Origin: Bacteroidota bacterium
GTDB taxonomy: Bacteria; Bacteroidota; Bacteroidia; Bacteroidales; JAAAOM01
DNA length: 64,000 nucleotides
Reading direction: 5' to 3'
Assembly (NCBI GenBank): GCA_009908855.1
Contig: JAAAOM010000031.1
Location: 62,001-126,000 of the forward strand
Position 1 is the stretch's first letter. Each line of letters starts with the position of its first letter. The position numbers and the translations under genes were made by a program. Shown piece by piece: positions 3 through 62,601 of this stretch. Under the pieces are notes generated by a model that made no database searches, had not been told where the DNA came from, and worked only from the letters and a program-made list of their open reading frames with translations.

Positions 3-809
3 ATTTACGCCATAAAAAGTTCATCAAATTATGATTTCACTGAATACTCCGAGAAATCATTGCGACGAAGACTTGCGAAGGTGATGCAGGATCACAACCT
101 GAATATCTCCTCATTAGTTAATAAAGTTAAGTCAGACAAAAAGTTCCTTGAGCAAATCGTGAAAGAAATTACGGTTAATACCACCGAGCTTTTTCGTGAC
201 CCCCAGGTTTGGCAAAATTTACGTTACAATATACTTCCCCGGTTTAAAAACAATTCAGTTATAAATGTATGGCATGCAGGATGCTCTACCGGACAGGAAG
301 TCTATTCCCTGATGATTTTGCTTAACGAGCTGGAAATGTTTGAGAAAACCAAAATGTATGCCACCGATTTAAACACGGATGTGTTAGAAAATGCCAATAA
401 GGGTGAATATAAATACAGGTTTAATATCGGATATTTGGATAACTTCGATAAAGTTATTAAGGAAAATCCGTATAATTATGACGAATATTATGATATCCCT
501 TATGATAAATATTTTACAATAGATAAATCAAGGGATATTATTAAAATGAATGATTTTCTGACACAAAAACCAGTTTTTAAAAAACAGGACCTGGTAAAGG
601 ATGAAAATACATTGTATGTTAAATTTGATTTGATACTTTGCAGAAATGTTATTATATATTTTAACTATAATTTACAAAACCGGGTTTTTGATTTATTTCA
701 CCGGAATTTGTACGAAGGAGGCGGACTGATTCTGGGAATGCACGAAACTATTTTGGGAAATTATTCACTCAAATATAAAAAAAGAGGACATGCTTATTTT
801 AAAGTTTAG
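3..809 (+). CDS. cheR: CheR-type protein-glutamate O-methyltransferase (5' partial)
   Basis: The open frame runs in from the left edge without a stop, so the true start lies outside the window; the first visible TTG (60) is internal. CheR transfers a methyl group from SAM to glutamates of chemoreceptor-like proteins in the cytosol. Visible are the helical N-terminal CheR domain (a run of arginines followed by the 'TELFRDPQVW' motif), then the Rossmann methyltransferase with SAM motif I 'HAGCSTGQEVYSL' and the conserved 'LCRNVIIYFN' near the C-terminus. All look intact, so an active enzyme is expected. It is followed 30 bp later by a membrane sensor and shares the block with a CheB domain and a second, degenerate CheR. 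No MCP, CheA or CheW gene is nearby, so its substrate is unlikely to be a classical chemoreceptor from this locus. Confidence 0.93.
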   Translation: MYAIKSSSNYDFTEYSEKSLRRRLAKVMQDHNLNISSLVNKVKSDKKFLEQIVKEITVNTTELFRDPQVWQNLRYNILPRFKNNSVINVWHAGCSTGQEVYSLMILLNELEMFEKTKMYATDLNTDVLENANKGEYKYRFNIGYLDNFDKVIKENPYNYDEYYDIPYDKYFTIDKSRDIIKMNDFLTQKPVFKKQDLVKDENTLYVKFDLILCRNVIIYFNYNLQNRVFDLFHRNLYEGGGLILGMHETILGNYSLKYKKRGHAYFKV

Positions 810-839
810 TGATTTTCCATTGAATTGAAGCAACTATTT

Positions 840-3455
840 ATGAAAAGTATAGCGAAATTATCAGTAAGAGGGAAATTAATATTTACTGCATTGTCAGGAA
901 CGATATTTGTTTTTGCCTTTCTGTTACTGAATAACCTTTATTTAAATTATAATGTTAAACTCAATGAAAAGGAAGAAATTCTTCAGAACCTGAAAAAAGA
1001 AGTCATTCTTCTCCAAAATGAGGAAAACGCCTATCTCACAGAATTGGTTAACAACAATGATATTTTATTCCTAAATATCGACAATCATTTGGTTAAAATA
1101 GAAAAACGGTATCAAACGGCATCCCGGTTAATCGATTCTGTACGTCTTTTTAACATATATGCTTCGGATACAATTTGGCTTGAAACACTGGATAATGTAG
1201 ATGCTTACCTGGATGAACTATATCATCAATACGAAGACCTGATTCTTAATTATAAAGAAAGAGGAACCGTACATCACAACTTAATTAAACAATGGACTAA
1301 TGCCGGTGAAGAACTGGAGTCTTTAATGTTTGAAAGTAACCAAATTCCATTAATCGCTGAAATAACCACTTTACGGAAAAATGAGAAAAACTATCTGATT
1401 TATGCTGATATTGAAACCCTTGATATCATTATTAACACCATTGAGAATATCAAAGCACTGATAAATTATGAATACCCTGAATATTCTTATAAAACCATAG
1501 AGCTGTGCGATAGATATTTAATGTTGGCCAAACAAATTGGCGCCATTAATGAACGAATAGGGATTGGTGCAAACGAAGGGTTACGCCAACAACTTACATC
1601 TTTAGCCAACATATTGGATTCTCATCTGTACGATTTATCCGAATATCAGCAGGAACAAATACAACAATACAAGAACAGAGCGTACAATGGTATGTTAATC
1701 GCTTATGGTGTATTGATACTCCTGTATTTTCTATTATTGTTTTATATCGGTAATTCCATAAACAAACCACTTTACCGCGTGAATGAATACCTTGAGCGAC
1801 TTACCAAAGGTGAACTACCCGAAAAAATAGACTGGAATATAAAAGGTGAACTCGGTATTCTTATTAACCGACTCAATCACTTTATTTTTACCTTAAAGGA
1901 AAAAAAGGATTTTGCCATTAAACTAAGTAATGGAAATCTCGAAGAATCCATCGATTTAAAAAGCCGCAAAGACATACTGGGTAAAACACTTATAAGCCTT
2001 CAAAATAATCTTAAATATGCCAATGAGGAACATGAGAAACACTTACAGGAAAATAAATTGCGACAATACATTAACGAAGGCATTAATAATATTTCCGAGG
2101 TTTTTCAATTACATAGCAACGATCTGGGTCATCTGGCCGACGAGTTTATCATACGGCTGGTGAAATACCTGGATATAGTTCAGGGTGCACTGTTTCTGAT
2201 GAACAGAGAGAAAAAAGAAACCATACTGGAATTAAAAGGTGCCTTTGCCTACGATCGTAAAAAATACCTCGAAAAGGAAATTAAATTGGGACAAGGTCTG
2301 GTAGGAACCTGCGCACTGGAGAAAAAACCTATTAAACCCAGGCATTTACCCGATGACTATATCAATATCACATCCGGACTTGGTGATAGTCCGCCCAGTC
2401 ACTTGTTTCTGGTACCCGTAATGAATGATGATGTGGTTGAAGGGGTGATTGAGCTGGCTGGTTTAAAAGAATTTGAGGACCACCAGTTGGAGCTTATCAA
2501 AACCATAGCCAATAATCTGGGCTCGGCGCTTGGCTCCATACGCGTCAATGCTCAAACAGCCGAATTACTTAAAAAATCACAGCAACAAGCCACCGAAATG
2601 TCGGAACAGGAAGAAGAAATGCGTCAGAACATGGAAGAGTTGCAGGCCACACAGGAGGAAGCCGCACGGCGAGAAGAAGAGACCAAAAATATTATGAGCG
2701 CATACCACAAAGCTGTGTTATATATGGAATATGACCTTGACGGCAAAATTGAAGAGGTAAACGATAATTATATCCGGTTGTTTAATCGCGACAAATCCAA
2801 AATTGTCGGTAAATTCCATAGCAATATTTATAACATCGATCATGAATCGGAAATTGAAAAGAAACTATGGGCCGATTTAAGAATGGGCGAGCAGCAAACC
2901 CGAATCGAGGCGTATGTTAACGATAATGGCGAAAAAAAATGGCTGTATCAGCAGTACACACCGGTTTTAAATGCCAGTAACGAAACGTACAAAGTAGTTA
3001 ATATTGCTTATGATATCACTGAACAAAAAAATAAGGAATCAGAAATTCATGCCAGAGAGCAGGAAATTAAATCGGAAAAGCGTGAATTCGAGGTTCTTAA
3101 ATACATTTTTGAACAAACCATTGCCAAAGCCGAGTTTAGCGTGGAAGGACAAATTGTAGAGCACAACAGAAACTTTGAGAAGCTTATCGGATTGGAGGCT
3201 GAAGACCTGAAAGATAAGCTGTATAATGAATATTTGAACAAAGTTGAAATTGAAAAATTTGACGGTATATGGGAACATATCCTGCAATCAAAAAGGTCAA
3301 TTTCTTCATTATTGAGAAGAACAAAACCATCAGGCGAAAATATATGGATCAGCGCAACTTTTTCGCCCGTATTTCATGAATCAAAAGACCAAATCGACAA
3401 AATAATCATGCTTGGCAGTGATATAACTGAAAATATACAACGAATTACCAGATAG
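840..3455 (+). CDS. Membrane sensor with HAMP-GAF-PAS-PAS, no output domain
   Basis: ATG 840 gives 871 residues; an in-frame TTG at 825 is possible but less likely. The order is: a basic start, TM1 (about residues 15-35), a helical extracytoplasmic sensor region (about 40-280), TM2 (about 285-305), a HAMP and a HAMP-like segment, GAF (about 420-570), a Gln/Glu-rich coiled coil with 'EEMRQNMEELQATQEE', then PAS1 (about 625-735) and PAS2 (about 750-865). No histidine kinase, GGDEF, MCP signalling hairpin or phosphatase domain follows, so it must act by protein contact or by controlling a neighbour. It lies between two CheR-like genes and upstream of CheB, which makes it a candidate methyl-accepting protein. 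That is inference. Its GAF and coil resemble those of the phosphatase encoded at 5661-8261. Confidence 0.88.
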   Translation: MKSIAKLSVRGKLIFTALSGTIFVFAFLLLNNLYLNYNVKLNEKEEILQNLKKEVILLQNEENAYLTELVNNNDILFLNIDNHLVKIEKRYQTASRLIDSVRLFNIYASDTIWLETLDNVDAYLDELYHQYEDLILNYKERGTVHHNLIKQWTNAGEELESLMFESNQIPLIAEITTLRKNEKNYLIYADIETLDIIINTIENIKALINYEYPEYSYKTIELCDRYLMLAKQIGAINERIGIGANEGLRQQLTSLANILDSHLYDLSEYQQEQIQQYKNRAYNGMLIAYGVLILLYFLLLFYIGNSINKPLYRVNEYLERLTKGELPEKIDWNIKGELGILINRLNHFIFTLKEKKDFAIKLSNGNLEESIDLKSRKDILGKTLISLQNNLKYANEEHEKHLQENKLRQYINEGINNISEVFQLHSNDLGHLADEFIIRLVKYLDIVQGALFLMNREKKETILELKGAFAYDRKKYLEKEIKLGQGLVGTCALEKKPIKPRHLPDDYINITSGLGDSPPSHLFLVPVMNDDVVEGVIELAGLKEFEDHQLELIKTIANNLGSALGSIRVNAQTAELLKKSQQQATEMSEQEEEMRQNMEELQATQEEAARREEETKNIMSAYHKAVLYMEYDLDGKIEEVNDNYIRLFNRDKSKIVGKFHSNIYNIDHESEIEKKLWADLRMGEQQTRIEAYVNDNGEKKWLYQQYTPVLNASNETYKVVNIAYDITEQKNKESEIHAREQEIKSEKREFEVLKYIFEQTIAKAEFSVEGQIVEHNRNFEKLIGLEAEDLKDKLYNEYLNKVEIEKFDGIWEHILQSKRSISSLLRRTKPSGENIWISATFSPVFHESKDQIDKIIMLGSDITENIQRITR

Positions 3456-3459
3456 GCTT

Positions 3460-4296
3460 ATGATTGAGTTAAGCGTTGTTGATACAAGAACAATTTGCAG
3501 AATAGTGCAGGAAAAGCATCAGTTTGATCTTTCCGGATTTGCACATACATCTCTCAAATACAGGCTTGCCAAACTAATGGCCCAGTATAAAATTCAGGAG
3601 CTTGATATCTTGTTGGCCAAAATTGGACAGGATGATGGATTTTTCGATTCCTTTTTGCATGATTTGTTGGTTCCGTCCACCGAAATGTTCAGAGACCCTT
3701 CCCTGTGGAGATGGCTAAAGGAAGGATATTTTCCTTCCATCAAAGATAAAATGACCGGTAATTATAAAATATGGCTGCCATTGTGTGTTGACGGATATGA
3801 ACTACATACCCTCACCATTGTGTTAAAAGAATTGGAATTGCTCGATAAAGTAAAGATTATTGCAGGTGTACTTACCAATAAAAGCAAAGAAGTAATTGAG
3901 GAAGGTATTTTACCCCTTAAAAAATACGAGATCAGCGCTGAAAATTATAAGAGATACCAGGGACAGGCAAATTTTGATGACTATGTAGCAAAACACGATT
4001 ATTATGTGGTTCGCGACAGGTCTTTAATAAAGAATGTACAGTTTATCAAACAAAATAATCTTTTTGATCATGCCCCCGGTAATGTAAAACTGATTTTATT
4101 CAGGAATCACTGTATCTATTTCAACCCGTCTATGCAGGAAAGGGTATTGGTAGAATTGCATCATAACCTTTCTGCAACCGGATTATTCATTATCGGTGCA
4201 AAAGAAAAGATTAAAAATATTGAATCAAGTGATACTTATGATTTAATTGATGAAGGAGAAAGCGTTTATAAAAAAAAATTCGTAAGTAAAAGTTAA
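3460..4296 (+). CDS. Degenerate CheR-like protein, probably inactive methyltransferase
   Basis: The 278-residue protein follows the CheR plan along its whole length: helical N-domain, 'STEMFRDPSLW', a Rossmann-like core, and 'LFRNHCIYFN' where active CheR has 'LCRNVIIYFN'. The SAM-binding loop is eroded: residues 104-114 read 'IWLPLCVDGYE', whereas the upstream paralogue has 'VWHAGCSTGQE'. The Gly-x-Gly turn and the small residues that hold SAM are lost. It starts 4 bp after the sensor gene and ends 1 bp before cheB, so it is kept in a tight operon and is not a decaying pseudogene; the frame is intact. A likely role is receptor binding or a decoy or regulator of the active CheR. Loss of catalysis is inferred from the motif only. 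Confidence 0.82.
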   Translation: MIELSVVDTRTICRIVQEKHQFDLSGFAHTSLKYRLAKLMAQYKIQELDILLAKIGQDDGFFDSFLHDLLVPSTEMFRDPSLWRWLKEGYFPSIKDKMTGNYKIWLPLCVDGYELHTLTIVLKELELLDKVKIIAGVLTNKSKEVIEEGILPLKKYEISAENYKRYQGQANFDDYVAKHDYYVVRDRSLIKNVQFIKQNNLFDHAPGNVKLILFRNHCIYFNPSMQERVLVELHHNLSATGLFIIGAKEKIKNIESSDTYDLIDEGESVYKKKFVSKS

Positions 4297-4297
4297 C

Positions 4298-4867
4298 ATG
4301 TCGACTTATAAAGCAGTAATAATAGGCGGATCAGCCGGTAGTTTTCAGGTAGTAACTAAAATTCTTAGTTCCATACCTACCGGTTTTCCTTTGCCCATAC
4401 TTTTATGTTTACACCGTTTAAAACATGTTCGATCAGGATTTGTGGAAGCATTGTCCTTAAAATCAAATATTCCGGTTATTGAACCCAATGATAAGGATTC
4501 CTTAAAACCCGGCATTGCCTATCTGGCCCCGGCCAATTACCACATGTATGTTGAACTGGCAAACCGGATTGCCTTATCAACCGATGATCCTGTAAACCAT
4601 TCGCGTCCGGCCATTGATCTGTCATTTATTACAGCCGCCAACGCTTACCGCCAAAAATTAATCGGCATCATTTTATCAGGAGCCAATCGCGACGGTGCCA
4701 TGGGACTTAAAAAGGTGCATGAACACGGCGGAACGACTATCGTTCAGGACCCGGCTGAATGTGAGGTTAAAACCATGACGGAAGCATCATTACAGATTAC
4801 ACAGGTGAATTACGTTTATCGATCCGATGAGATCATTAATTTTTTAAAAAAATCAGTTAGATCATGA
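4298..4867 (+). CDS. cheB: Stand-alone CheB-type protein-glutamate methylesterase domain
   Basis: CheB methylesterases remove methyl groups from receptor glutamates and can deamidate glutamines. The 189 residues are a methylesterase domain only. The catalytic triad is visible: Ser12 in 'IIGGSAGS', His39 in 'LCLHR' and Asp132 in 'ILSGANRDGAMG'. The N-terminal receiver domain of classical CheB is absent, so the enzyme is not switched on by CheA phosphotransfer; activity must be constitutive or set by a binding partner. The stop overlaps the next start as ATGA (4864-4867), and the start is 1 bp after the preceding stop, suggesting translational coupling within the signalling operon. Single-domain CheB proteins are known next to CheR in Bacteroidota. 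Confidence 0.93.
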   Translation: MSTYKAVIIGGSAGSFQVVTKILSSIPTGFPLPILLCLHRLKHVRSGFVEALSLKSNIPVIEPNDKDSLKPGIAYLAPANYHMYVELANRIALSTDDPVNHSRPAIDLSFITAANAYRQKLIGIILSGANRDGAMGLKKVHEHGGTTIVQDPAECEVKTMTEASLQITQVNYVYRSDEIINFLKKSVRS

Positions 4868-5643
4868 ATTTGCCAAATAAATATCGCAACATCGGATTAA
4901 TAATATTGATTGTTATGATCCTGATATTATTGATTTCCGTTGCTATGGTACGGAACATCATAATGACAGGCGGAATAGAAGGAAAAGGGTTGGTGTATAT
5001 ACTACTGAGTTTTGCCATAGCAGGCGTATTTTTGTTGTATTTAATAATTTTACGGCTCACTGGTTGGGAAATAAAAAATTATTTTATCGCCGAATATAAT
5101 GCTGAAAAAAATGAAACCGAAGAGGAAGAAAAAGTAGAAGAAGTTCAGGAACAAACCGATGAAAAGATATTAACTTTAGAAGAGCTTGAACGTAACATTT
5201 TCCCGCAAAAGAAGTTTAAATACCTCGACAGTTATGCTGAAAAATTACTCATTAACCTGGGTAAGTTTATGGAAATTAGTCAGGGTGTTTTTTACAGGTT
5301 GGATGATAATTCGGGAAAATTCAGGCTAATAGCTAAATATGCTACTGCCGTTGAAAAGGAAGCAGAAGAAATTGGGCCGGGTGAAGGATTAACAGGACAA
5401 GTGGCAATCGACAAAAAAATGAATATTATTGACGAAGTGCCTGAAAACTATTTACAAATTGTATCCGGTCTGGGCAAAGGACAACCCGCACAGCTGGTTA
5501 TCGTACCCATACTTAAAAATAATGAAGTGTCGGCTATCATGGAGCTTGCTTCACTTAAAAAGTTTAGCGATAGTTTTTTATCATTGCTTCCTGATTTAGC
5601 CAATAATTTAGGTAAGCAAATAGATAATTTTGAATTGAGATAG
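4864..5643 (+). CDS. Membrane-anchored GAF-domain protein
   Basis: The protein has 259 residues with two N-terminal membrane helices (about 9-30 and 42-64). A Glu-rich, probably coiled linker follows (about 75-110, with 'TEEEEKVEEVQEQ'), then a single GAF domain (about 120-255). There is no catalytic output. The GAF shares signatures with those of the upstream sensor and the downstream phosphatase: a 'QGV/QGA' strand, a 'G-x-GL-x-G' turn, an 'I-x-SGL' element and a 'VPI' strand. It therefore looks like a stripped-down paralogue that could hetero-oligomerise with them. Translation is probably coupled to cheB through the 4-bp overlap. Its ligand is unknown. A membrane adaptor role is inferred from architecture alone. 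Confidence 0.8.
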   Translation: MNLPNKYRNIGLIILIVMILILLISVAMVRNIIMTGGIEGKGLVYILLSFAIAGVFLLYLIILRLTGWEIKNYFIAEYNAEKNETEEEEKVEEVQEQTDEKILTLEELERNIFPQKKFKYLDSYAEKLLINLGKFMEISQGVFYRLDDNSGKFRLIAKYATAVEKEAEEIGPGEGLTGQVAIDKKMNIIDEVPENYLQIVSGLGKGQPAQLVIVPILKNNEVSAIMELASLKKFSDSFLSLLPDLANNLGKQIDNFELR

Positions 5644-5660
5644 TACAAAACAGGGTAGGT

Positions 5661-8261
5661 ATGTTTAAGAAAATAACAGATATCATTAAGAATAATACCA
5701 TCATTTATGGTTTTGTAATAGGTTTGCCTATTCCCATTTTAGGATGGATTCTTGATTTTGTAAGCAGTAAGGAACCCGTTACCTTTTCCTATTTCATAGG
5801 TCTTTACTCCGAAAACCTGCTGCACTGGATGTTGCTGATTTTCCCGTTTGCCCTTTCTGCCCTTTATTACCGCCAAGCCAACAGCAAAGAAAATTTAATT
5901 GAGGAATACAATACCGAAATAACCAAAACCGAAAAACGCATCGAAGAAACCGCCAGATTTGCTAAAGAAATCGGTGAAGGTAATTTCGATTCCGAGCTTC
6001 AGGTTGAAAAAGAAGATGCGCTGACCCAGTCGTTGCTGTTAATGCGCGATAATTTAGCTGAGAATAGCCGTCGCGAAGCCGAACAAAGCTGGATTGCAGC
6101 CGGAAAAGACAAGATATCAAACATCCTGCGATTGCACACAAAAATTGATGAGCTTTGCTATGAAGTCCTGGTAGCATTGGTTGATTACATTGAAGTAACC
6201 CAGGGTGCTATCTATTTATATTCCGAAGAAAATAAAAAACTGGAAAACAAAGCTACTTATGCCTATAATCGCCGTAAATACATTGAGCAGGAGTTTGAGG
6301 TAGGGCATGGCCTTATTGGTCAATGTGCTTATGAAATGGACTATGTTTACCGTACCGAAATACCCGAGGGATATGTTTCAATAACATCCGGTATATTAGG
6401 TGATAAAAAACCATCAAGCATTTTATTGGTGCCATTAACCAGCGATGAAAAACTGCAAGGTGTACTGGAATTTGCATCCATCGAAATCATTCCTGATAAC
6501 ACCATTGTTCTGCTCAAAGAACTGGGGGAAATTATTGCCCGTACCATTTTCAACCTTCAGATAAATGCCCGTACAGAGCAATTGCTAAAGGAATCGCAGG
6601 AGATGACTACTGAACTTCAGGAGAATGAAGAGGAACTCAGACAAAATGCGGAGGAAATGCGGGCAACGCAGGATGAGCTAAGAAAATCAAATGAACAGCT
6701 TGAGAAACAATTTCAGGAAGTTGAAAATGCTCAAAAAAGACTGTATTCGCTACTTGAAAATGCCTCTGAGGTTATTGCCATTTATGACGAGGATATGGTC
6801 ATGAAATATGTCAGCCCGTCAGTAGAGAAAATTCTGGGATTTGAACCCGAGGAAATGATGTCGGGAAAAGATATGGACCGCCTTACACGCAAAGGAGAAT
6901 CCGCCTTGCGTAATATGTTTAAAGAATTACTGAACAGCCCTGACGAAGTACAGTCCATTCAGTATACCTACATGAAAAAAGACGGGCACAAAATATTCCT
7001 GGAAACAACCGGTCGCAACCTCTTAGAAGACCCTGCAATACAGGGAATAATTCTCAACTCCAGGGATATCACCGAGCGCAAACGTGCCGAGAAAGAGGAG
7101 CGAATGAAAAGTAAAATGCAGGCTCTGTCAGAGAACTCACTCGATATGATCCTGCGTCTGAGTACGGTGGGCCAGTTCTTCTATGCAAACCCGGTGGTGG
7201 AGGACTACTTCAACATTTCGGCCAAAGAGATCATCAATAAAACACTGAACGAAATAGTAATTCACGAAGTATTCTTTAACTACTTTAAAGAAACCATCGA
7301 GGAAATAAAAGCCAAACCCTCGAAACACAACAAAGAAATAAATGTGCCGCTTAAATACGGTGAGAAAGAAACACACCGGATCATGAGCATTGATGCCATC
7401 CCTGAATTTAACGAAAATGAGTTGGAAACCATTTTATTTGTGGGGCATGATATTACCGAAGCCAAACGAATTGAAATGGAGATTCAGGAGAAAAACAAAA
7501 AGATCGAAGACTCCATCAACTACGCACAACGAATTCAAACATCCATATTGCCCAACAATGCCGTAATTCGCGATGTGTTCCCGAAATCATTCATTTTTTA
7601 CAAACCACGTGATGTGGTAAGTGGTGACTTCCCGTGGTTCTTTAAAAGAGGAGAAAATATTTACATTGCCGCGGTTGATTGTACCGGGCATGGTGTGCCT
7701 GGTGCATTGCTGTCGTTCATTGGATACTTTATTCTCAATAATATTGTTGACCATGACAAGGAACAAACAGCCGCACAGGTATGCGATGCTTTGCATTATG
7801 GTGTACGCACAACATTGCGTCAGGACAGGGCCGATGCTAATCAACGCGATGGTATGGACATTGCCCTGTGTAAGATAAATCCTTCAAAGAATGAATTACA
7901 GTACGCCGGCGCACATCGCCCGTTGTACTATTTATCAAAGGGTGAGTTGGAAGAGTTCAAAGGAAACAGGAAAGCAATTGGTGGTATCCCTCACCGAAAA
8001 AAGCCGGAAAAAGATTTTGAAAATTATGTTATAAATTACAAGCCCGGAGATAAAGTATTTTTCTTTTCTGATGGTTTACCCGACCAATTAGGTGGCCCGG
8101 AAATGAAAAAATATTCTCCGAAAAGAATACGCGAAACCATTTTGGAAAATGAAAATTACTCGATGCAGGAGTATAATGATCATTTTGCAAAAGATTTTGT
8201 AAACTGGAAAGGAGACACCAAACAAATTGATGATGTCTTGCTAATTGGAATAGAATTTTAG
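5661..8261 (+). CDS. Membrane GAF-PAS-PAS-SpoIIE (PP2C) serine/threonine phosphatase, SiaA-like
   Basis: The protein has 866 residues: two membrane helices (about 13-32 and 47-70), a HAMP-like helical segment (about 75-150), GAF (about 165-305), a coiled coil with 'EEELRQNAEEMRATQDE', PAS1 (about 370-480), PAS2 (about 490-600), and a SpoIIE-type PP2C phosphatase from about residue 618 ('SINYAQRIQTSILP'). Metal-ligand motifs are present: 'SGDFPWF', 'AVDCTGHGVPGA', 'DGMDIALC', 'FFSDGLPDQ' and 'DDVLLIGI'. Most relatives have GDFYW or GDFFW, so the proline is unusual. The SiaB and SiaC genes follow at once, so the expected job is that of Pseudomonas SiaA: dephosphorylating SiaC in response to a signal. 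Here the sensing module is GAF/PAS instead of the usual periplasmic sensor. Confidence 0.9.
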   Translation: MFKKITDIIKNNTIIYGFVIGLPIPILGWILDFVSSKEPVTFSYFIGLYSENLLHWMLLIFPFALSALYYRQANSKENLIEEYNTEITKTEKRIEETARFAKEIGEGNFDSELQVEKEDALTQSLLLMRDNLAENSRREAEQSWIAAGKDKISNILRLHTKIDELCYEVLVALVDYIEVTQGAIYLYSEENKKLENKATYAYNRRKYIEQEFEVGHGLIGQCAYEMDYVYRTEIPEGYVSITSGILGDKKPSSILLVPLTSDEKLQGVLEFASIEIIPDNTIVLLKELGEIIARTIFNLQINARTEQLLKESQEMTTELQENEEELRQNAEEMRATQDELRKSNEQLEKQFQEVENAQKRLYSLLENASEVIAIYDEDMVMKYVSPSVEKILGFEPEEMMSGKDMDRLTRKGESALRNMFKELLNSPDEVQSIQYTYMKKDGHKIFLETTGRNLLEDPAIQGIILNSRDITERKRAEKEERMKSKMQALSENSLDMILRLSTVGQFFYANPVVEDYFNISAKEIINKTLNEIVIHEVFFNYFKETIEEIKAKPSKHNKEINVPLKYGEKETHRIMSIDAIPEFNENELETILFVGHDITEAKRIEMEIQEKNKKIEDSINYAQRIQTSILPNNAVIRDVFPKSFIFYKPRDVVSGDFPWFFKRGENIYIAAVDCTGHGVPGALLSFIGYFILNNIVDHDKEQTAAQVCDALHYGVRTTLRQDRADANQRDGMDIALCKINPSKNELQYAGAHRPLYYLSKGELEEFKGNRKAIGGIPHRKKPEKDFENYVINYKPGDKVFFFSDGLPDQLGGPEMKKYSPKRIRETILENENYSMQEYNDHFAKDFVNWKGDTKQIDDVLLIGIEF

Positions 8262-8302
8262 AGTATTAACTTAAATATGTCATTATAATAAACTAAATAA
8301 TT

Positions 8303-8896
8303 ATGGGCAAAGAGAAAGATGTGAAAGGATTTCTGGAATTTGTTTACGAATTCTACAAATCCATGAAAGCACACGAAATTACATTGGTGTACGAGGGCGA
8401 AATAACGCACCAAATCACCAAAGCTTTTACCTCGCTTGCTGAATCAAACATGGCGAAGGAAGATGAAGCAGGTACTGTACAACGAAAAGTATTTCATGTA
8501 ATGGTCGAATGTTTACAAAATATTAGTAAACATGCCGATGATTTTACGTCTAACGATTATCTTTTCTCCGGAAGAGGTATATTTTTAGTTAGTAAAGGGG
8601 AAAATGAATACAGCATCACAACCGGCAATGCCGTGGAAAATGACCGTATAGAAGAATTGACCACCATGCTGGAAGACATTAACCGAATGGATAAGGATGC
8701 GTTAAAAGATCTTTACAAACGCCAAATTAAAGAAGGGCGATTGTCCGAAAAAGGAGGTGCCGGCCTCGGCTTTATCGATATTAAACGTAAAACCGGGAAG
8801 GAGCTTGAATACCATTTCCTGCCCATTTCGGATAACACTTCATTCTTTTTATTAACTTCGACAATTTCCCGCGAACTAAATTCACAACAAGATTAA
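8303..8896 (+). CDS. siaB: SiaB family protein kinase (DUF6272)
   Basis: The 197-residue soluble protein has a divergent GHKL-type ATP-binding fold. The N-box is visible as 'HVMVECLQNISKHA' and the glycine-rich lid as 'EKGGAGLGFIDIKRKTG'. In Pseudomonas aeruginosa SiaB phosphorylates SiaC, opposing the phosphatase SiaA. The gene sits between a SpoIIE phosphatase and a SiaC homologue, and ends 1 bp before the siaC start, exactly the context expected for a partner-switching set. No sensor domain is present, so input must enter through the phosphatase. The family assignment rests on these boxes plus gene order. Confidence 0.87.
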   Translation: MGKEKDVKGFLEFVYEFYKSMKAHEITLVYEGEITHQITKAFTSLAESNMAKEDEAGTVQRKVFHVMVECLQNISKHADDFTSNDYLFSGRGIFLVSKGENEYSITTGNAVENDRIEELTTMLEDINRMDKDALKDLYKRQIKEGRLSEKGGAGLGFIDIKRKTGKELEYHFLPISDNTSFFLLTSTISRELNSQQD

Positions 8897-8897
8897 T

Positions 8898-9278
8898 ATG
8901 GAAGCAATAAAAATTCAAGGAACAGAGGACACACCTAAAATTATTTTGGATGCGGATAACGATTTCTTTGAAATTTCAGGTCGTTCATTGCCGGAAGATG
9001 TAACATCCTTTTACGAACCGGTTATCAATTGGTTGGACGAATATGCCGAAAGTCCGAAAGATAAAACGGTTTTTAATTTCAAACTGGTATATTTCAATAC
9101 AGCTTCCTCGAAATTATTACTCGATATTTTAATGAAGTTGGAAGAAATACACGAAAATGGTAATGACGTGCTCATACGTTGGCATTATCCCGAAGAAGAC
9201 GAAGATATGCAGGAAGCGGGCGAAGAATATGCCGATATTGTTGATGTACCATTTGAACAGGTAGGTTACCCGGGATAA
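8898..9278 (+). CDS. siaC: SiaC family regulatory phosphoprotein (DUF1987)
   Basis: This small acidic cytosolic protein (126 residues) belongs to the SiaC/DUF1987 family, the phospho-switch of the SiaABC system. The family hallmark 'KLVYFNTASSKLLLDI' is present. By direct count its threonine is residue 68, the same number as the phosphorylated Thr68 of P. aeruginosa SiaC. In Pseudomonas, unphosphorylated SiaC binds and activates the diguanylate cyclase SiaD. No GGDEF gene occurs in this window, and the next gene (54 bp on) encodes an ABC transporter with TerB and FHA-like domains. The partner here may therefore differ; that is inference. The start follows siaB by 1 bp. Confidence 0.92.
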   Translation: MEAIKIQGTEDTPKIILDADNDFFEISGRSLPEDVTSFYEPVINWLDEYAESPKDKTVFNFKLVYFNTASSKLLLDILMKLEEIHENGNDVLIRWHYPEEDEDMQEAGEEYADIVDVPFEQVGYPG

Positions 9279-9332
9279 AACTAAAAATTCATTGTTACCG
9301 TTGCCATTAGCGGACGGCACAACCTGTAAATT

Positions 9333-12300
9333 ATGAGTGAAGAAATTCTTAGAGCCCTCATGCAACTTTTTGCGATCATCGCCAAACAGGATGAAGGCGT
9401 TGAATCGAACCAGGTAGAATATGTCCATAACTTTCTTACCCAGCAATTGGGGGATGAAGAAGTACAGGAATATTTTACTCTTTTCAAAAAGCAGGCAGGA
9501 TTTGATGAAGATGAGGAAGAAGAAACAGATGATAAGGGGGAAAAGAAAAAGAAAAGGCTAACATCCGTAAAGGAGTCAGTGAAGGTATTGGGAATATGTA
9601 AAAAGATTAATAAAACCCTTACCCAGAAACAAAAAATCGTTGTGTTGGTGAGGCTGTTTGAAATTGTTAATACCGACCGTAAATTTACCGAACAACGTAT
9701 GGCCATTATCAATACGGTGGCCGAGGTATTTAACATTCTAAAAGAAGAGTTTGAAGCTACACGACAATTCGTGATCAACAATGACCCCGCCCAACTGGAT
9801 GATCCTAATTTGCTCGTAATTAATGATAACGATGAACCCTTTGGTCAATGCAAAAGAATTAAAACCAAAGAGCTAGACGCCCATATATTTATTCTGCGCA
9901 TTAAAAGTGTTGATCTGTACTTCTTAAAATATACCGGTCATGAAGACCTGTTCCTGAACGGATTACCAGTCAATAATTCACGTATTTATCTGTTTGCCAA
10001 CGGGAGTACCATTAAACTCCCTAAAGGACGGCCCATTTATTATAGTGACATCGCCGGTCGATTCCTGGCTGATATGTCTGCCAGTAAAATTTCGTACGAC
10101 TGCAAGAACGTATTTTTTCAATTTCCCAATGGTAACATCGGACTCAGGGATATCAGTTTTTCGGAAGGCCATGGCCGTTTAATAGGTATTATGGGAGCCA
10201 GTGGAGCCGGCAAAACTACCCTGTTGAATGTATTGTGCGGTATTGAAAAGCCATCCGATGGACAGGTGCTGATCAATGGTCTCAATCTGCACACCGAAAA
10301 AGATAAACTCGAAGGGGTGATCGGTTACATCCCACAGGATGACCTGCTGATTGAAGAATTAACCGTATTTCAAAATTTATACTACAATGCCAAACTTTGC
10401 TTCAAAGACAAAAGCGAAGAAGAAATAACCCAATTGGTTAATAAAACCTTATCAAATTTAGGTTTGATAGACCGTAAAGATCTGAAGGTTGGATCACCGT
10501 TAAACAAATTTATCAGCGGCGGCCAGCGTAAACGTTTGAATATTGCGCTCGAGTTAATCAGGGAACCCTCCATACTGTTTGTGGATGAGCCAACATCCGG
10601 ACTCTCATCGCGTGATTCGGAAAATGTAATGGACCTGCTGCGTGAACTTACCCTGAAAGGCAAACTGATATTTGTGGTCATTCACCAACCATCATCAGAG
10701 ATTTACAAAATGTTTGATAAAATGATCATCCTCGATACCGGTGGATACCTGGTTTATTATGGCAACCCGGTTGAAGGAGTGATGTATTTCAAACGCCTGG
10801 ATATGCAGATTAACAGTGATGTAGGTGAATGCCCTACCTGCGGTAATGTTAATCCCGAACTTATTTTTAATATAATCGAGGCTAAAGTGGTGGACGAGTA
10901 CGGAAATTTAACCGATCACCGTAAGGTATCACCTCCCAAATGGGAATCGTATTTTAAAGATAATCTCGAAATCGATGAAGCCGAGCAGATTGATGATCCA
11001 CCGCCAAAATCATTAAATATTCCCAACTGGCTTAAACAGTTTAACATTTATACCATACGCGATTTTCTGTCGAAAGTAAGCAATCGGCAGTATATCGCCT
11101 TAAACCTGCTGGAAGCACCTATACTTGGTTTTATATTATCATTTATCATCCGCTATATTGCCGATCCCGAATCGAACATTTACATATTCAGGGAGAACGA
11201 AAATATACATATATACATTTTTATGTCATTGATTGTTGCCTTGTTCCTGGGTTTAACGGTCAGTGCCGAAGAGATTTTCAGAGACCGGAAAATTCTTAAA
11301 CGCGAATCGTTTTTGAATCTCAGCCGGTCAAGTTATTTACTGTCAAAAGTATTGCTGTTATTTACAATTTCAGCCATACAGGCCATAACTTTTATCCTGA
11401 TTGCCAATACTATATTGGGCATCAAAGGTATGACCTTTAATTACTGGTTTGCCCTGTTCAGTACGGCAGCCTTTGCCAATATGCTGGGACTTAATGTGTC
11501 GGCATCATTTAATTCGGCGGTTACCATTTACATCATTATTCCGTTATTAATGATCCCGATGATGATTTTAAGCGGTGCCATGTTCCCGTTCGATAAACTC
11601 AATCGTTCCATCAGCTCGGTAGGCAAAGTACCGCTCATTGCCGAGATAATGGTAACCAAATGGTCGTATGAGGCTTTAATGGTTCATCAATTCAAAAGCA
11701 ATAAGTTTAATAAAAAGTTTTATCCGGTTGATAAAGTAGAAGTTGAAACGGATTTTAAAAAAGTATATTTCCTGCCTGAGATGAACCAGCGACTGGACAA
11801 AGTAATTGCTGAATTGGCTGAAAATGGCCAGGTGGAAGAAACTGCTGCTGACCTGGAATTAATTCGCAATGAAATTCGTAAAGAAATGCGTTTGGTGCCA
11901 CAGGTTGAATTTGACATGATGGACCAGTTAACACCCGGGAATTTCTCCAGGAATGTAGCCCGCAAAGTAAGGGAATACTTTAAAAAACTGGATCAGCATT
12001 ACAGTCAGGAGTTCCAAATCGCCAATAAGAAAAAGGAAAATATGATCAATTTCTATATGGAACGAGATCCTGAACTGTTCAAATCAATGCGAAATACATA
12101 CCACAACGAGGGAATTGAAGACATTGTGCGTAAAATTTATGAGAAAAATAAAATCGTTGAATATGAAAATGAGCTTATTCAGCAAATTGAACCCATTTAC
12201 CTGGACCCATTGCCCGATCATCAATTTGAATTCAGGTCACATTTTCTGGCTCCGCAGAAACATTTCCTGGGTGTTTATTTTGATACCTACTGGTTTAATT

Positions 12301-12410
12301 TATGTGTGATATGGCTGTTCACCCTTATCCTTTATGTGAGTTTGTATTACGAATGGCTTAAAAAGCTATTGAATATAAATTTTAGCATCAGATTGAAAGG
12401 GAAAAAATAA
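9333..12410 (+). CDS. TerB / FHA-like / ABCG-type ABC transporter fusion
   Basis: The protein has 1025 residues. The N-terminus (about 1-140) is a helical TerB-like domain with a charged loop. Residues about 165-245 form a beta-rich segment resembling a degenerate FHA domain ('LFLNGLPV' then 'LFANGSTIKLPKG'). An ABC ATPase follows (about 255-480) with Walker A 'GASGAGKTT' (about 288), signature 'SGGQRKR' (about 395) and Walker B 'ILFVDEPTSG'. The C-terminal half holds an ABC2-type membrane domain (about 585-790), a soluble acidic insert and a last membrane helix near the C-terminus. Order and fusion resemble ABCG half-transporters and the FHA-ABC protein Rv1747 of Mycobacterium. It follows siaC in the same direction, so control of transport by the Sia switch is plausible. 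The substrate is unknown. Confidence 0.88.
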   Translation: MSEEILRALMQLFAIIAKQDEGVESNQVEYVHNFLTQQLGDEEVQEYFTLFKKQAGFDEDEEEETDDKGEKKKKRLTSVKESVKVLGICKKINKTLTQKQKIVVLVRLFEIVNTDRKFTEQRMAIINTVAEVFNILKEEFEATRQFVINNDPAQLDDPNLLVINDNDEPFGQCKRIKTKELDAHIFILRIKSVDLYFLKYTGHEDLFLNGLPVNNSRIYLFANGSTIKLPKGRPIYYSDIAGRFLADMSASKISYDCKNVFFQFPNGNIGLRDISFSEGHGRLIGIMGASGAGKTTLLNVLCGIEKPSDGQVLINGLNLHTEKDKLEGVIGYIPQDDLLIEELTVFQNLYYNAKLCFKDKSEEEITQLVNKTLSNLGLIDRKDLKVGSPLNKFISGGQRKRLNIALELIREPSILFVDEPTSGLSSRDSENVMDLLRELTLKGKLIFVVIHQPSSEIYKMFDKMIILDTGGYLVYYGNPVEGVMYFKRLDMQINSDVGECPTCGNVNPELIFNIIEAKVVDEYGNLTDHRKVSPPKWESYFKDNLEIDEAEQIDDPPPKSLNIPNWLKQFNIYTIRDFLSKVSNRQYIALNLLEAPILGFILSFIIRYIADPESNIYIFRENENIHIYIFMSLIVALFLGLTVSAEEIFRDRKILKRESFLNLSRSSYLLSKVLLLFTISAIQAITFILIANTILGIKGMTFNYWFALFSTAAFANMLGLNVSASFNSAVTIYIIIPLLMIPMMILSGAMFPFDKLNRSISSVGKVPLIAEIMVTKWSYEALMVHQFKSNKFNKKFYPVDKVEVETDFKKVYFLPEMNQRLDKVIAELAENGQVEETAADLELIRNEIRKEMRLVPQVEFDMMDQLTPGNFSRNVARKVREYFKKLDQHYSQEFQIANKKKENMINFYMERDPELFKSMRNTYHNEGIEDIVRKIYEKNKIVEYENELIQQIEPIYLDPLPDHQFEFRSHFLAPQKHFLGVYFDTYWFNLCVIWLFTLILYVSLYYEWLKKLLNINFSIRLKGKK

Positions 12411-12478
12411 ATTTTTATATTCATCTGTTTTTTAATATTTTTATTTTAAACATTGACAACCGTTGAGTAATAATCAAA

Positions 12479-13396
12479 ATGAGTGCAATTATGTATAAAA
12501 AAATACCGTATATCCTGTTGGTCATTTTGTTCGCTTTTTCCTGTAAGTCGGGGCAGGAAAGTGGAGGAGAATTTGGTGAGGTACCCGATTCAGTATTAAG
12601 CGAAGGCTTACTGGAAATAAATGAAGATGTGATGCAGGATATTGTACAGAATATATCCTCGCCCGTGGAAATGGCCGCATTATTAAAAAGTTTGGGCGTT
12701 CCTTTTTCAAGCGAATATTTAGCACCTACCGACAAAGTGGACAATCTTACAACCAGCTTTAAGCAGGCTTTTAATCTGGGTGTTTACGGCGCCGATCTGG
12801 GATACCTGAATATGTACAACAAAACCAATGCAGTATTGGATTATATACAGGCCATTAAAGTACTTTCGGATGCAATTAGGGTAGGACAATTTTTTGACTT
12901 TAACACATTAAAACGGCTGGCCACCAACAATACCAATCTCGATTCGTTGATGTACATCTCCGTGCATAGTTTTAACCAAATGGATAAATATTTACGGAGC
13001 AATAAGCGCAGTAATTTAAGTACACTAATTCTTACCGGTGTATGGATTGAAGGATTGTATCTGGCCACCCAGGTAGCCAAAGAAGAGGATAATGCCGACC
13101 TGAAAGAACGCATTGGTGAACAAAAATTAATTCTTGAAAAATTAATTATTGTGTTGGAAAATTTCAGCAGAGATACCAATTTCGCTAATTTGGTTGCCGA
13201 TTTTAAAGATTTGCAAGAAACATTTGAACCTGTGGAGATATCTTATGTTAAGGGTGAACCCGAAGCCATTGAAGAAGACGGCATGTTGATAATTGTACAA
13301 AATGAAAAAAGTGTAGTAGATATTTCTGACGATACACTTACAGAGATTATCGATAAAACCGAGGAGTTAAGAAATAAACTCATTAGTGCTATCTAA
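12479..13396 (+). CDS. Predicted lipoprotein of unknown function
   Basis: The protein has 305 residues (from ATG 12479; ATG 12491 is an alternative that keeps the signal). It starts with a lipoprotein signal peptide ending in the lipobox 'FAFSC', so it should be lipidated on the periplasmic side. The remainder is mostly helical and acidic, without a domain I can name. It is the tenth gene of the signalling block, 68 bp after the ABC transporter, and precedes a small secreted protein with no terminator between. It could be the periplasmic or outer-membrane partner of that transporter; this is inferred from position only. Confidence 0.8.
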   Translation: MSAIMYKKIPYILLVILFAFSCKSGQESGGEFGEVPDSVLSEGLLEINEDVMQDIVQNISSPVEMAALLKSLGVPFSSEYLAPTDKVDNLTTSFKQAFNLGVYGADLGYLNMYNKTNAVLDYIQAIKVLSDAIRVGQFFDFNTLKRLATNNTNLDSLMYISVHSFNQMDKYLRSNKRSNLSTLILTGVWIEGLYLATQVAKEEDNADLKERIGEQKLILEKLIIVLENFSRDTNFANLVADFKDLQETFEPVEISYVKGEPEAIEEDGMLIIVQNEKSVVDISDDTLTEIIDKTEELRNKLISAI

Positions 13397-13429
13397 AAAG
13401 TGGCCATTTAAAACTAAAAATCAACACGG

Positions 13430-13870
13430 ATGAAAAAAATATGCTATATACTCACGCTCTTTTTCTTTACTACTGTGCTTGTTAAAGCCCAGGGTACAGA
13501 CATTTTGGTAGCTCAGTGCGCGGCAAGTGCCGGTGAAAATGTAACCTACTTAAAAGATTTCGTTGTTGAGCTTGAAGCGGCTACAGCAGGCGAAAAACCG
13601 CCTCAAGCCAAATTTTCAATGGTTTTAAGTAAAAATACCATGTACCGATTTACGATTTGTACAGCTCCTGATTCCGAAGGTGAAGCCATCATCCAGTTGT
13701 ATGATATGAATACACTGTTGGGCAGTTCATTTATCATGGCCACCGGTAAAAGCTATCCGGGATTTAATTTCAAATGTCAAAAAACGGGTGTGTACCATGT
13801 ATTTATTTCTATTAAAGATGGTAAACCAGGTAGAGCAGTGGGAATATTATCGTTTGTTGAAAAACTTTAG
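13430..13870 (+). CDS. Small secreted beta-sandwich-like protein
   Basis: The protein has 146 residues with a cleavable signal peptide (cleavage probably after 'VLVKAQ'). The mature part is rich in beta-strand-forming segments and resembles small pre-peptidase-like sandwich domains ('MYRFTICTAPDSEGEAIIQLYD', shortened here as 'MYRFTICTAPDSEG'), with three cysteines. No catalytic motif is seen. It is the last gene before a strong terminator, 33 bp after the lipoprotein gene, so it probably belongs to the same transcription unit. Function is unknown. Confidence 0.78.
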   Translation: MKKICYILTLFFFTTVLVKAQGTDILVAQCAASAGENVTYLKDFVVELEAATAGEKPPQAKFSMVLSKNTMYRFTICTAPDSEGEAIIQLYDMNTLLGSSFIMATGKSYPGFNFKCQKTGVYHVFISIKDGKPGRAVGILSFVEKL

Positions 13871-13899: not shown

Positions 13900-13927
13900 C
13901 CGTTAAGTATTTCTTAACGGTTTTTTT
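13900..13927 (+). terminator. Rho-independent terminator of the signalling operon
   Basis: An 8-bp perfect stem (13900-13907 with 13913-13920, arm CCGTTAAG) has a 5-base loop and is followed by seven T residues. It lies 29 bp after the stop of the secreted-protein gene and marks the end of the long plus-strand block. Confidence 0.88.
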
Positions 13928-61581: not shown

Positions 61582-62601
61582 GTGAACAACATATTTGTAA
61601 TTTGTGAAACGGAGAATGGAAAAATCTCTGATGTAAGCCTTGAACTGCTTACAAAAGGCAGGTCGTTGGCCAATGAATTAAAATGTCAGCTTGAAGCACT
61701 GGTAATTGGTGACCACCTGGCGGATATCGAAAAGCAATTGTATCCATATGGTACCGATATGGTATGGGTAGCCGATGATTCAAGGTTGGTTTTTTATTCA
61801 ACCTTACCATATACCGCCATAGCCGTTCAGTTGTTTAAGGAGCAAAAACCACAAATTGTATTGCTGGGAGCATCCAGTTTTGGGCGTGATTTAGGTCCTC
61901 GCGTTTCTTCAGCCCTGGCAAGTGGGTTAACCGCTGATTGTACCAGCCTGGAAATTGGCGATCATGAAGATAAACGGGCAGGTAAGCAATACACCCATTT
62001 ATTATATCAAATTCGGCCGGCCTTTGGTGGAAATATTGTAGCAACCATAATAAACCCTGACAAAAGGCCCCAAATGGCCACGGTGCGCGAAGGGGTAATG
62101 AAAAAAGCAATACACAACGAAAATTACAAAGGCAAACGTACTGATTTGGATGTGTCAAAATATGTAAAAGATGATGATTTTGTGGTAAAAATCATTGAAC
62201 GACACATTGAATCCTCCAAAGTGAATATTAAAAATGCATCAATTATTGTGGCTGGCGGTTACGGCGTGGGTTCGAAAGAAAATTTTGATCTGCTGGCACA
62301 ACTCGCTGAGACCATTGGTGCTGAGGTAGGAGCATCACGCGCTGCCGTAGATGCTGGCTTTGCCGGGCATGACAGGCAAATCGGGCAAACAGGGGTTACC
62401 GTACGTCCCAAATTATACATTGCCTGCGGTATTTCCGGTCAAATACAACATATTGCCGGTATGCAGGACTCAGCCATGATCATTTCCATTAATAATGATC
62501 CCGGTGCTCCGATTAATAAAATTGCGGATTATGTTATTACAGGTGATTTAACAGAAGTGTTGCCTAAAATGATTAAGTACTATAAGAAAAACACCAAGTA
62601 A
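61582..62601 (+). CDS. etfA: Electron transfer flavoprotein alpha subunit
   Basis: The 339-residue protein carries the FAD-binding C-terminal domain: 'GYGVGSKENFDLLAQLAE', 'GASRAAVDAGF', 'QIGQTGVTVRPKLYIACGISGQIQH' (motif 'GQTGVTVRPKLYIACG') and 'SINNDPGAPINKIADYVI'. The N-terminal half has the usual ETF alpha/beta fold. The start is a GTG (61582), the only start compatible with the family. It forms a heterodimer with EtfB and hands electrons to a membrane ETF:quinone oxidoreductase, which is not encoded here. Confidence 0.95.
   Translation: MNNIFVICETENGKISDVSLELLTKGRSLANELKCQLEALVIGDHLADIEKQLYPYGTDMVWVADDSRLVFYSTLPYTAIAVQLFKEQKPQIVLLGASSFGRDLGPRVSSALASGLTADCTSLEIGDHEDKRAGKQYTHLLYQIRPAFGGNIVATIINPDKRPQMATVREGVMKKAIHNENYKGKRTDLDVSKYVKDDDFVVKIIERHIESSKVNIKNASIIVAGGYGVGSKENFDLLAQLAETIGAEVGASRAAVDAGFAGHDRQIGQTGVTVRPKLYIACGISGQIQHIAGMQDSAMIISINNDPGAPINKIADYVITGDLTEVLPKMIKYYKKNTK

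Follow-up and report, generated by a model that had tools for sequence, protein, structure and literature searches.

An 11-gene run occupies positions 3 to 13870 of the window analyzed here, a 64,000-nucleotide stretch (positions 62,001 to 126,000) of contig JAAAOM010000031.1 from a Bacteroidales bacterium (assembly GCA_009908855.1; G000 in locus labels). All eleven genes are on the plus strand, with intergenic distances of -4 to 68 nucleotides in the open reading frame (ORF) list. They encode, in order, a CheR-type methyltransferase (CheR1), a sensor with HAMP, GAF, and PAS domains, a second CheR-like protein (CheR2), a CheB methylesterase without a receiver domain, a membrane GAF protein, a GAF-PAS-SpoIIE protein phosphatase, SiaB, SiaC, an ABCG exporter with TerB and FHA-like domains, a lipoprotein, and a small secreted protein (Table 1). 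Gene identities were assigned with Pfam and NCBIfam scans, in which the lipoprotein and the secreted protein had no family match. The run begins with cheR1 because the gene upstream is divergent; the cheR1 start codon lies 31 nucleotides upstream of the window (L011:13970). An earlier reading of the letters of this DNA, referred to below as the original prediction, had named the same eleven genes and a terminator that closes the run. Both descriptions held, with all ORFs present, co-directional, and matched to the families named, and a hairpin and T-run located after the last gene. The predicted lack of a diguanylate cyclase (SiaD) was also correct, because none of the eleven ORFs encodes one. 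A scan for Bacteroidota-type promoter patterns inside the run saw none, which is weak evidence; the scan was uninformative.

Table 1. Positions in the window of the genes, domains, and other features of the run
Feature	Position	Strand	Evidence
cheR1, CheR-type methyltransferase	3..809	+	CheR match 7e-37; S-adenosylmethionine (SAM) motif WHAGCSxGQEvYS invariant
Output-less transmembrane sensor (periplasmic helical region, HAMP, GAF, coil, PAS, PAS)	825..3455	+	Family scan
Hyperconserved coil of the sensor, SEQEEEMRQNMEELQATQEEAARREEE	2601..2681	+	EELQAT at 2634-2651 fits the methylation consensus of methyl-accepting chemotaxis proteins
cheR2, CheR-like	3460..4296	+	CheR match 2e-19; degenerate SAM motif
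cheB, methylesterase domain without receiver	4298..4867	+	CheB_methylest 1e-47; Ser12-His39-Asp132 conserved
Membrane GAF protein (two predicted transmembrane helices and GAF)	4864..5643	+	GAF match
GAF-coil-PAS-PAS-SpoIIE protein phosphatase	5661..8261	+	SiaA-like catalytic domain; metal-binding Asp intact
Coil of the phosphatase, QENEEELRQNAEEMRATQDELRKSNEQ	6618..6698	+	EEMRAT at 6651-6668
siaB, SiaB-family protein kinase	8303..8896	+	SiaB family 2e-51; N box ECLQNISKHA and G box GGAGLGFIDI invariant
siaC phosphoprotein	8898..9278	+	SiaC (PF09345) match 8e-43; Thr68 is codon 9099-9101, within YFNTASSK (invariant)
ABCG-type half transporter	9333..12410	+	TerB, ABC_tran, and ABC2_membrane
Transporter N-terminal TerB	9354-9767	+	
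Transporter degenerate FHA fold	9795-10067	+	
Transporter nucleotide-binding domain	10143-10598	+	
Transporter ABC2 membrane domain	11037-11693	+	
Lipoprotein, all-helical, undescribed family	12479..13396	+	Conserved partner of TerB-ABC genes
Small secreted protein, no family	13430..13870	+	
Intrinsic terminator, hairpin CCGTTAAGTATTTCTTAACGG and T-run	13900..13927	+	3' of the last gene

The gene order is conserved in relatives, a check that had been posed in advance. Scanning the ABC protein against 84,980 species genomes yielded 80 loci with flanks, many of them interrupted by contig ends. The exact 11-gene order was found in 16 of the 80 loci; 41 had the nine genes that run from cheR2 through the gene for the secreted protein, and 67 had a core of siaB, siaC, the ABC gene, the lipoprotein, and the secreted protein. 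The order is kept across Bacteroidales and Marinilabiliales. The lipoprotein, used as a marker, is rare (four genomes in an even phylum-wide sample, n = 158), and close CheB relatives (59-61%) occurred in just two of those four besides the window's own genome, both with a shorter cluster that has one cheR and no separate sensor. A rare marker combined with an order widely kept in relatives indicates an old system with a restricted distribution.

One possibility is that two independent modules, one for Che/GAF signaling and one comprising Sia and ABC genes, have a common promoter region and that SiaC regulates something besides the exporter. Separation of the modules is indeed seen in about four lineages, with the Che block departing from the locus about four times in the ABC tree. 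In L154, siaBC has remained beside the Che block rather than the ABC gene, and the ABC gene of L099 and of L106 has no siaBC next to it. Furthermore, most of the 13 SiaC paralogues in the 3.35-Mb genome of the window are located away from ABC genes, siaB, or a phosphatase. However, the five-gene core remains together in most loci, and two more TerB-ABC genes, arranged differently, have siaBC next to them. The receiver-less CheB was kept in 22 of 23 genomes searched, mostly genomes whose Che block had moved, and the relocated CheB is usually found in an intact cheR1-cheR2-cheB-membrane GAF block elsewhere in the genome. For example, Carboxylicivirga has CheB with the sensor and phosphatase on the same contig as the Sia/ABC part, 30-40 kb away. 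The sole genome of the 23 without any CheB (G011) has an ABC gene with neither siaBC nor the lipoprotein beside it. Two independent modules therefore have little likelihood, and it is well supported that the genes form one functional unit. In a rumen clade (L151, L152, L157, and L158) a secreted leucine-rich-repeat protein precedes the relocated cheR1-cheR2-cheB-membrane GAF block.

Alignments of 45 to 74 sequences demonstrated that the catalytic residues of CheR1, CheB, the SpoIIE phosphatase, and SiaB, as well as Thr68 of SiaC, are invariant or nearly so. The CheB triad is conserved in 49 aligned sequences, and Thr68 is at least 90% conserved in 73. The PP2C aspartates and the N and G boxes of SiaB are also conserved. 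SiaB scored 173.8 bits against NF038262 (cut-off, 85 bits), and the phosphatase matched the NCBIfam SiaA catalytic region at 3e-50, which is under the equivalog cut-off. The prediction that the phosphatase sets SiaC is consistent with its intact catalytic residues and the conserved Thr68, the residues on which that claim rests. The second CheR-like gene was correctly assigned to its family, but in CheR2 neither the GCS-x-G SAM motif nor the acidic residue that binds SAM is preserved. Thus, CheR2 is probably a pseudo-enzyme rather than a normal methyltransferase.

The best conserved 20 residues of the sensor are not in its GAF, HAMP, or PAS domains but in a coil after the GAF domain. Among 42 aligned sensors this coil, with the consensus QEEE[ML]RQN[ML]EE[LM]xATQEE, has a conservation of 0.795 versus a mean of 0.396, and the same coil was found in the SpoIIE phosphatase. 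The central site of the coil matched [EQ][EQ]xxA[ST], the methylation consensus of methyl-accepting chemotaxis proteins (MCPs) (PMC1079850), in 24 of 30 unique coils. The consensus was kept in either the sensor or the phosphatase in 46 of the 47 loci with cheB in cis. A coil search revealed three further coil receptors in the window's genome, one of them terminating in the coil. Among 35 other genomes, 20 of the 21 that encode this CheB had the coil (up to 17 matches in one genome) and the 14 that do not encode it had none, a comparison in which the matches were selected by similarity to one coil and the genomes are related rather than independent. Pfam scans of 20 coil proteins, one of which extends beyond the stretch scanned, detected solely Cache, HAMP, GAF, PAS, propeller, or hemerythrin domains. 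Output domains of any kind, including kinase, cyclase, and MCP (MCPsignal) domains, were absent from all 20. The suggestion that methylation tunes an array of GAF/PAS sensors thus gains independent support from a hyperconserved Glu-Glu-X-X-Ala-Thr coil in output-less receptors. Methylation itself is what we infer from this pattern, and modification of the coil by a CheR-type enzyme appears somewhat probable.

It is possible that the coil is a mere structural signaling helix between GAF and PAS domains, that its Glu-Glu-X-X-Ala-Thr motif is coincidental in a Glu-rich coil, and that CheR and CheB act on something else, for example the phosphatase or the membrane GAF protein. Linkers made of Glu/Gln-rich coiled coil are common, and cheR1 does not always have the sensor beside it. 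Six loci of one clade have lost the motif from the sensor in cis, though CheR and CheB persist in trans; other receptors in those six genomes retain the motif. However, the consensus Ala is kept in 25 and the Thr in 28 of the 30 unique coils while the residue immediately before them varies, and 13 Bacteroidota genomes that lack the cluster had no coil proteins. In addition, a HAMP-GAF receptor without an output domain (L191:1-1677; G000:C51:25.7 kb) terminates in the coil and has no downstream domain to signal to. A purely structural coil is thus considered unlikely. A strict rule under which the coil motif is intact only with cheB in cis was also rejected. It is true for most sensors, yet the motif is intact in L080 and L101, where cheB is in trans, and the six genomes that lost the cis motif still have CheR and CheB in trans. 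Several coil sensors of Marinilabiliaceae and other clades (L209, L211-L214, L219, L224, and L225) have in common a conserved C-terminal AFIQxxEVELF, a possible docking peptide.

Another explanation for CheR1 and CheB would be that they serve an ordinary MCP/CheA array encoded elsewhere and are merely housed in this operon, with the Sia/ABC part working alone. As the original prediction stated, CheA, CheW, and CheY are missing from the window, but the genome encodes an MCP, CheW, and CheA at another locus (L186:3729-15620; G000:C22) that lacks its own CheR and CheB, and it has a second MCP at C24. The sole other CheB/CheR found in the genome is a CheB-CheR-PAS fusion followed by a hybrid histidine kinase (L024:2877-9187; G000:C24), a separate non-chemotaxis set. 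In the three Marinilabiliaceae-group genomes that were read upstream, the cluster (only its Che-SpoIIE half in two) directly follows a chemosensory operon on the same strand. The absence of CheA and CheW is not a property of the whole system. However, this operon, with the order MCP-STAS-CheY-Hpt-CheA-CheW-CheW-CheR-histidine kinase-CheD-CheB(receiver) (Pfam domains checked in one of the three), already has its own CheR, CheD, and CheB with a receiver, and therefore CheR1 and the receiver-less CheB represent an additional, distinct set of methylation enzymes. This additional set keeps company with the GAF sensor, the membrane GAF protein, and SpoIIE, not with MCP and CheA, and the coil with its MCP-like methylation site tracks this CheB between genomes. 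Dedication of CheR1 and CheB to an ordinary array is, on this evidence, distinctly unlikely. At C22, the MCP-CheW-CheA genes adjoin a polyketide synthase-like gene.

The SiaC of the window aligned without gaps to that of Pseudomonas aeruginosa, and its Thr68 falls on the experimentally phosphorylated Thr68. SiaC proteins that adjoin TerB-ABC genes have in common a new acidic helix signature, EDMxEAGEEY, a near form of which was found in at least one other SiaC paralogue. The exporter has the ABCG order of nucleotide-binding domain and then ABC2_membrane, with Walker A, signature, and Walker B motifs present. Its TerB-FHA region had no match in profile searches against solved structures. The predicted fold of the N-terminus comprises a TerB-like helical domain and an FHA-like sandwich, and the closest solved structures in Foldseek were FHA domains and PG1108 (probability 1.00 to FHA chains, with weak E-values of 0.02-0.1). 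The lipoprotein had only marginal helical matches in the profile searches, and its predicted helical structure had no fold match.

There are four TerB-ABC paralogues in the window's genome, of which three adjoin a lipoprotein relative and two adjoin siaBC. The second TerB-ABC gene (L014:7689-11973; G000:C35:225.7-230 kb) is convergent to another siaB-siaC pair, and two more (L164 and L165; G000:C13 and C20) are each beside a distant lipoprotein relative. A similar TerB-ABC/siaBC arrangement is present in a genome of a different family (G068, L172). It had been predicted that SiaC controls the transporter, and we infer this control from gene linkage, that is, from adjacency repeated at a second TerB-ABC paralogue and in a different family. 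The ABCG type of the exporter and its lipoprotein partner point to envelope or surface material as the cargo. A divergent receiver-domain protein is adjacent to the TerB-ABC gene and lipoprotein relative at C20.

One signaling-and-export system that would accommodate these results is as follows. Output-less receptors, including the sensor of the cluster and others in the genome, would sense through periplasmic, GAF, and PAS domains. Their coil Glu-Glu-X-X-Ala-Thr site would be methylated by CheR1 and demethylated or deamidated by the receiver-less CheB, setting receptor gain as an adaptation step. The coil, common to receptors and the SpoIIE phosphatase, would couple the two. The phosphatase would strip, and the SiaB kinase would add, phosphate at Thr68 of SiaC. 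Dephosphorylated SiaC may then act on the TerB/FHA-like ABC exporter, which, with the putative outer membrane lipoprotein and the secreted protein, would export an envelope or surface component. We slightly favor this mechanism as a whole. It can be proposed only tentatively that the coil receptors are a new class of methyl-accepting receptors that lack an MCP hairpin or kinase, in which the GAF-linked coil is both the CheR/CheB methylation site and a coupling element in direct control of the PP2C phosphatase, so that adaptation as in chemotaxis sets the SiaC switch and gates the ABC exporter.

Several observations weigh against the proposed system. The gene set and order, intact active sites, conservation, and coil distribution are all sequence-based evidence, and the coil comparison carries the selection and relatedness described above. 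One genome (G009) has CheB without a coil match, and the six loci of one clade have lost the sensor motif. In L046 (9384-13063) the ABC gene comes immediately after siaB, without an intervening siaC, and the same genome has no coil matches. The SiaD-contacting residues D79, R103, L107, and D114 of Pseudomonas SiaC are changed here, and thus the partner-binding mode is not transferable from Pseudomonas. Binding by SiaC as in SiaC-SiaD was rejected because the contact residues of the crystal structure are not conserved. The FHA-like domain of the original prediction has a real predicted fold, but it lacks the phosphothreonine-binding GR and SxxH (GR and the His are lost; NG is kept), and an FHA domain that reads phospho-SiaC is not supported because those residues are absent.

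Among described systems, RsbK-RsbM-RsbY comes nearest to the front half of the cluster and SiaABCD to its middle. In Bacillus cereus, the CheR-type RsbM methylates RsbK, a CHASE3-HAMP-GAF kinase, and the phosphatase RsbY feeds the RsbV/RsbW sigma-B switch (PMC12848376). In both systems a PP2C-type phosphatase and a partner-switch phosphoprotein lie below a HAMP-GAF membrane sensor with CheR-type methylation, which is proposed in the present case. However, the B. cereus system has a histidine kinase (RsbK) as its sensor and a sigma factor as its output, in contrast to the output-less receptors, CheB, SiaB/SiaC switch, and linked ABC exporter found here; the family scan detected no kinase domain in the cluster sensor, which separates it from RsbKMY-type systems. 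SiaABCD of P. aeruginosa consists of the PP2C phosphatase SiaA, the kinase SiaB, SiaC phosphorylated at Thr68, and the diguanylate cyclase SiaD (PMC7647112, PMC8457831). The cluster resembles it in the SiaA-like PP2C phosphatase, the SiaB kinase, and Thr68 of SiaC in a matching motif, but it lacks SiaD, has changed SiaD-contact residues, and adds CheR/CheB and an ABC exporter. Rv1747 of Mycobacterium tuberculosis, whose operon also encodes the kinase PknF (PMC3908365, PMC5549992), is likewise an ABC exporter with an N-terminal FHA-type domain linked to Ser/Thr phosphorylation. Here, in contrast, there are TerB and one degenerate FHA fold without the phosphothreonine residues, and partner-switch proteins replace the Hanks-type kinase. 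Similarities to MCP/CheA systems are CheR and CheB with intact catalytic residues and the transmembrane-periplasmic-transmembrane-HAMP receptor topology, whereas the coil receptors lack the MCP signaling hairpin, CheA, and CheW, and CheB lacks a receiver. No description of the gene combination or of output-less coil receptors was found in the literature searched.

To our knowledge, reversible receptor methylation is known almost exclusively from chemotaxis. If the proposed system is correct, such methylation would also serve for adaptation in an export-controlling switch based on a protein phosphatase. A receptor family recognizable by its coil would be defined, functions could be assigned in Bacteroidota to orphan CheB proteins that lack a receiver and to GAF/PAS sensors that lack an output domain, and SiaC would gain a target besides diguanylate cyclase. 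Marinilabilia, Alkaliflexus, Carboxylicivirga, and Breznakibacter are cultured carriers, and thus each step is testable. These results suggest that receptor methylation can control export instead of swimming.

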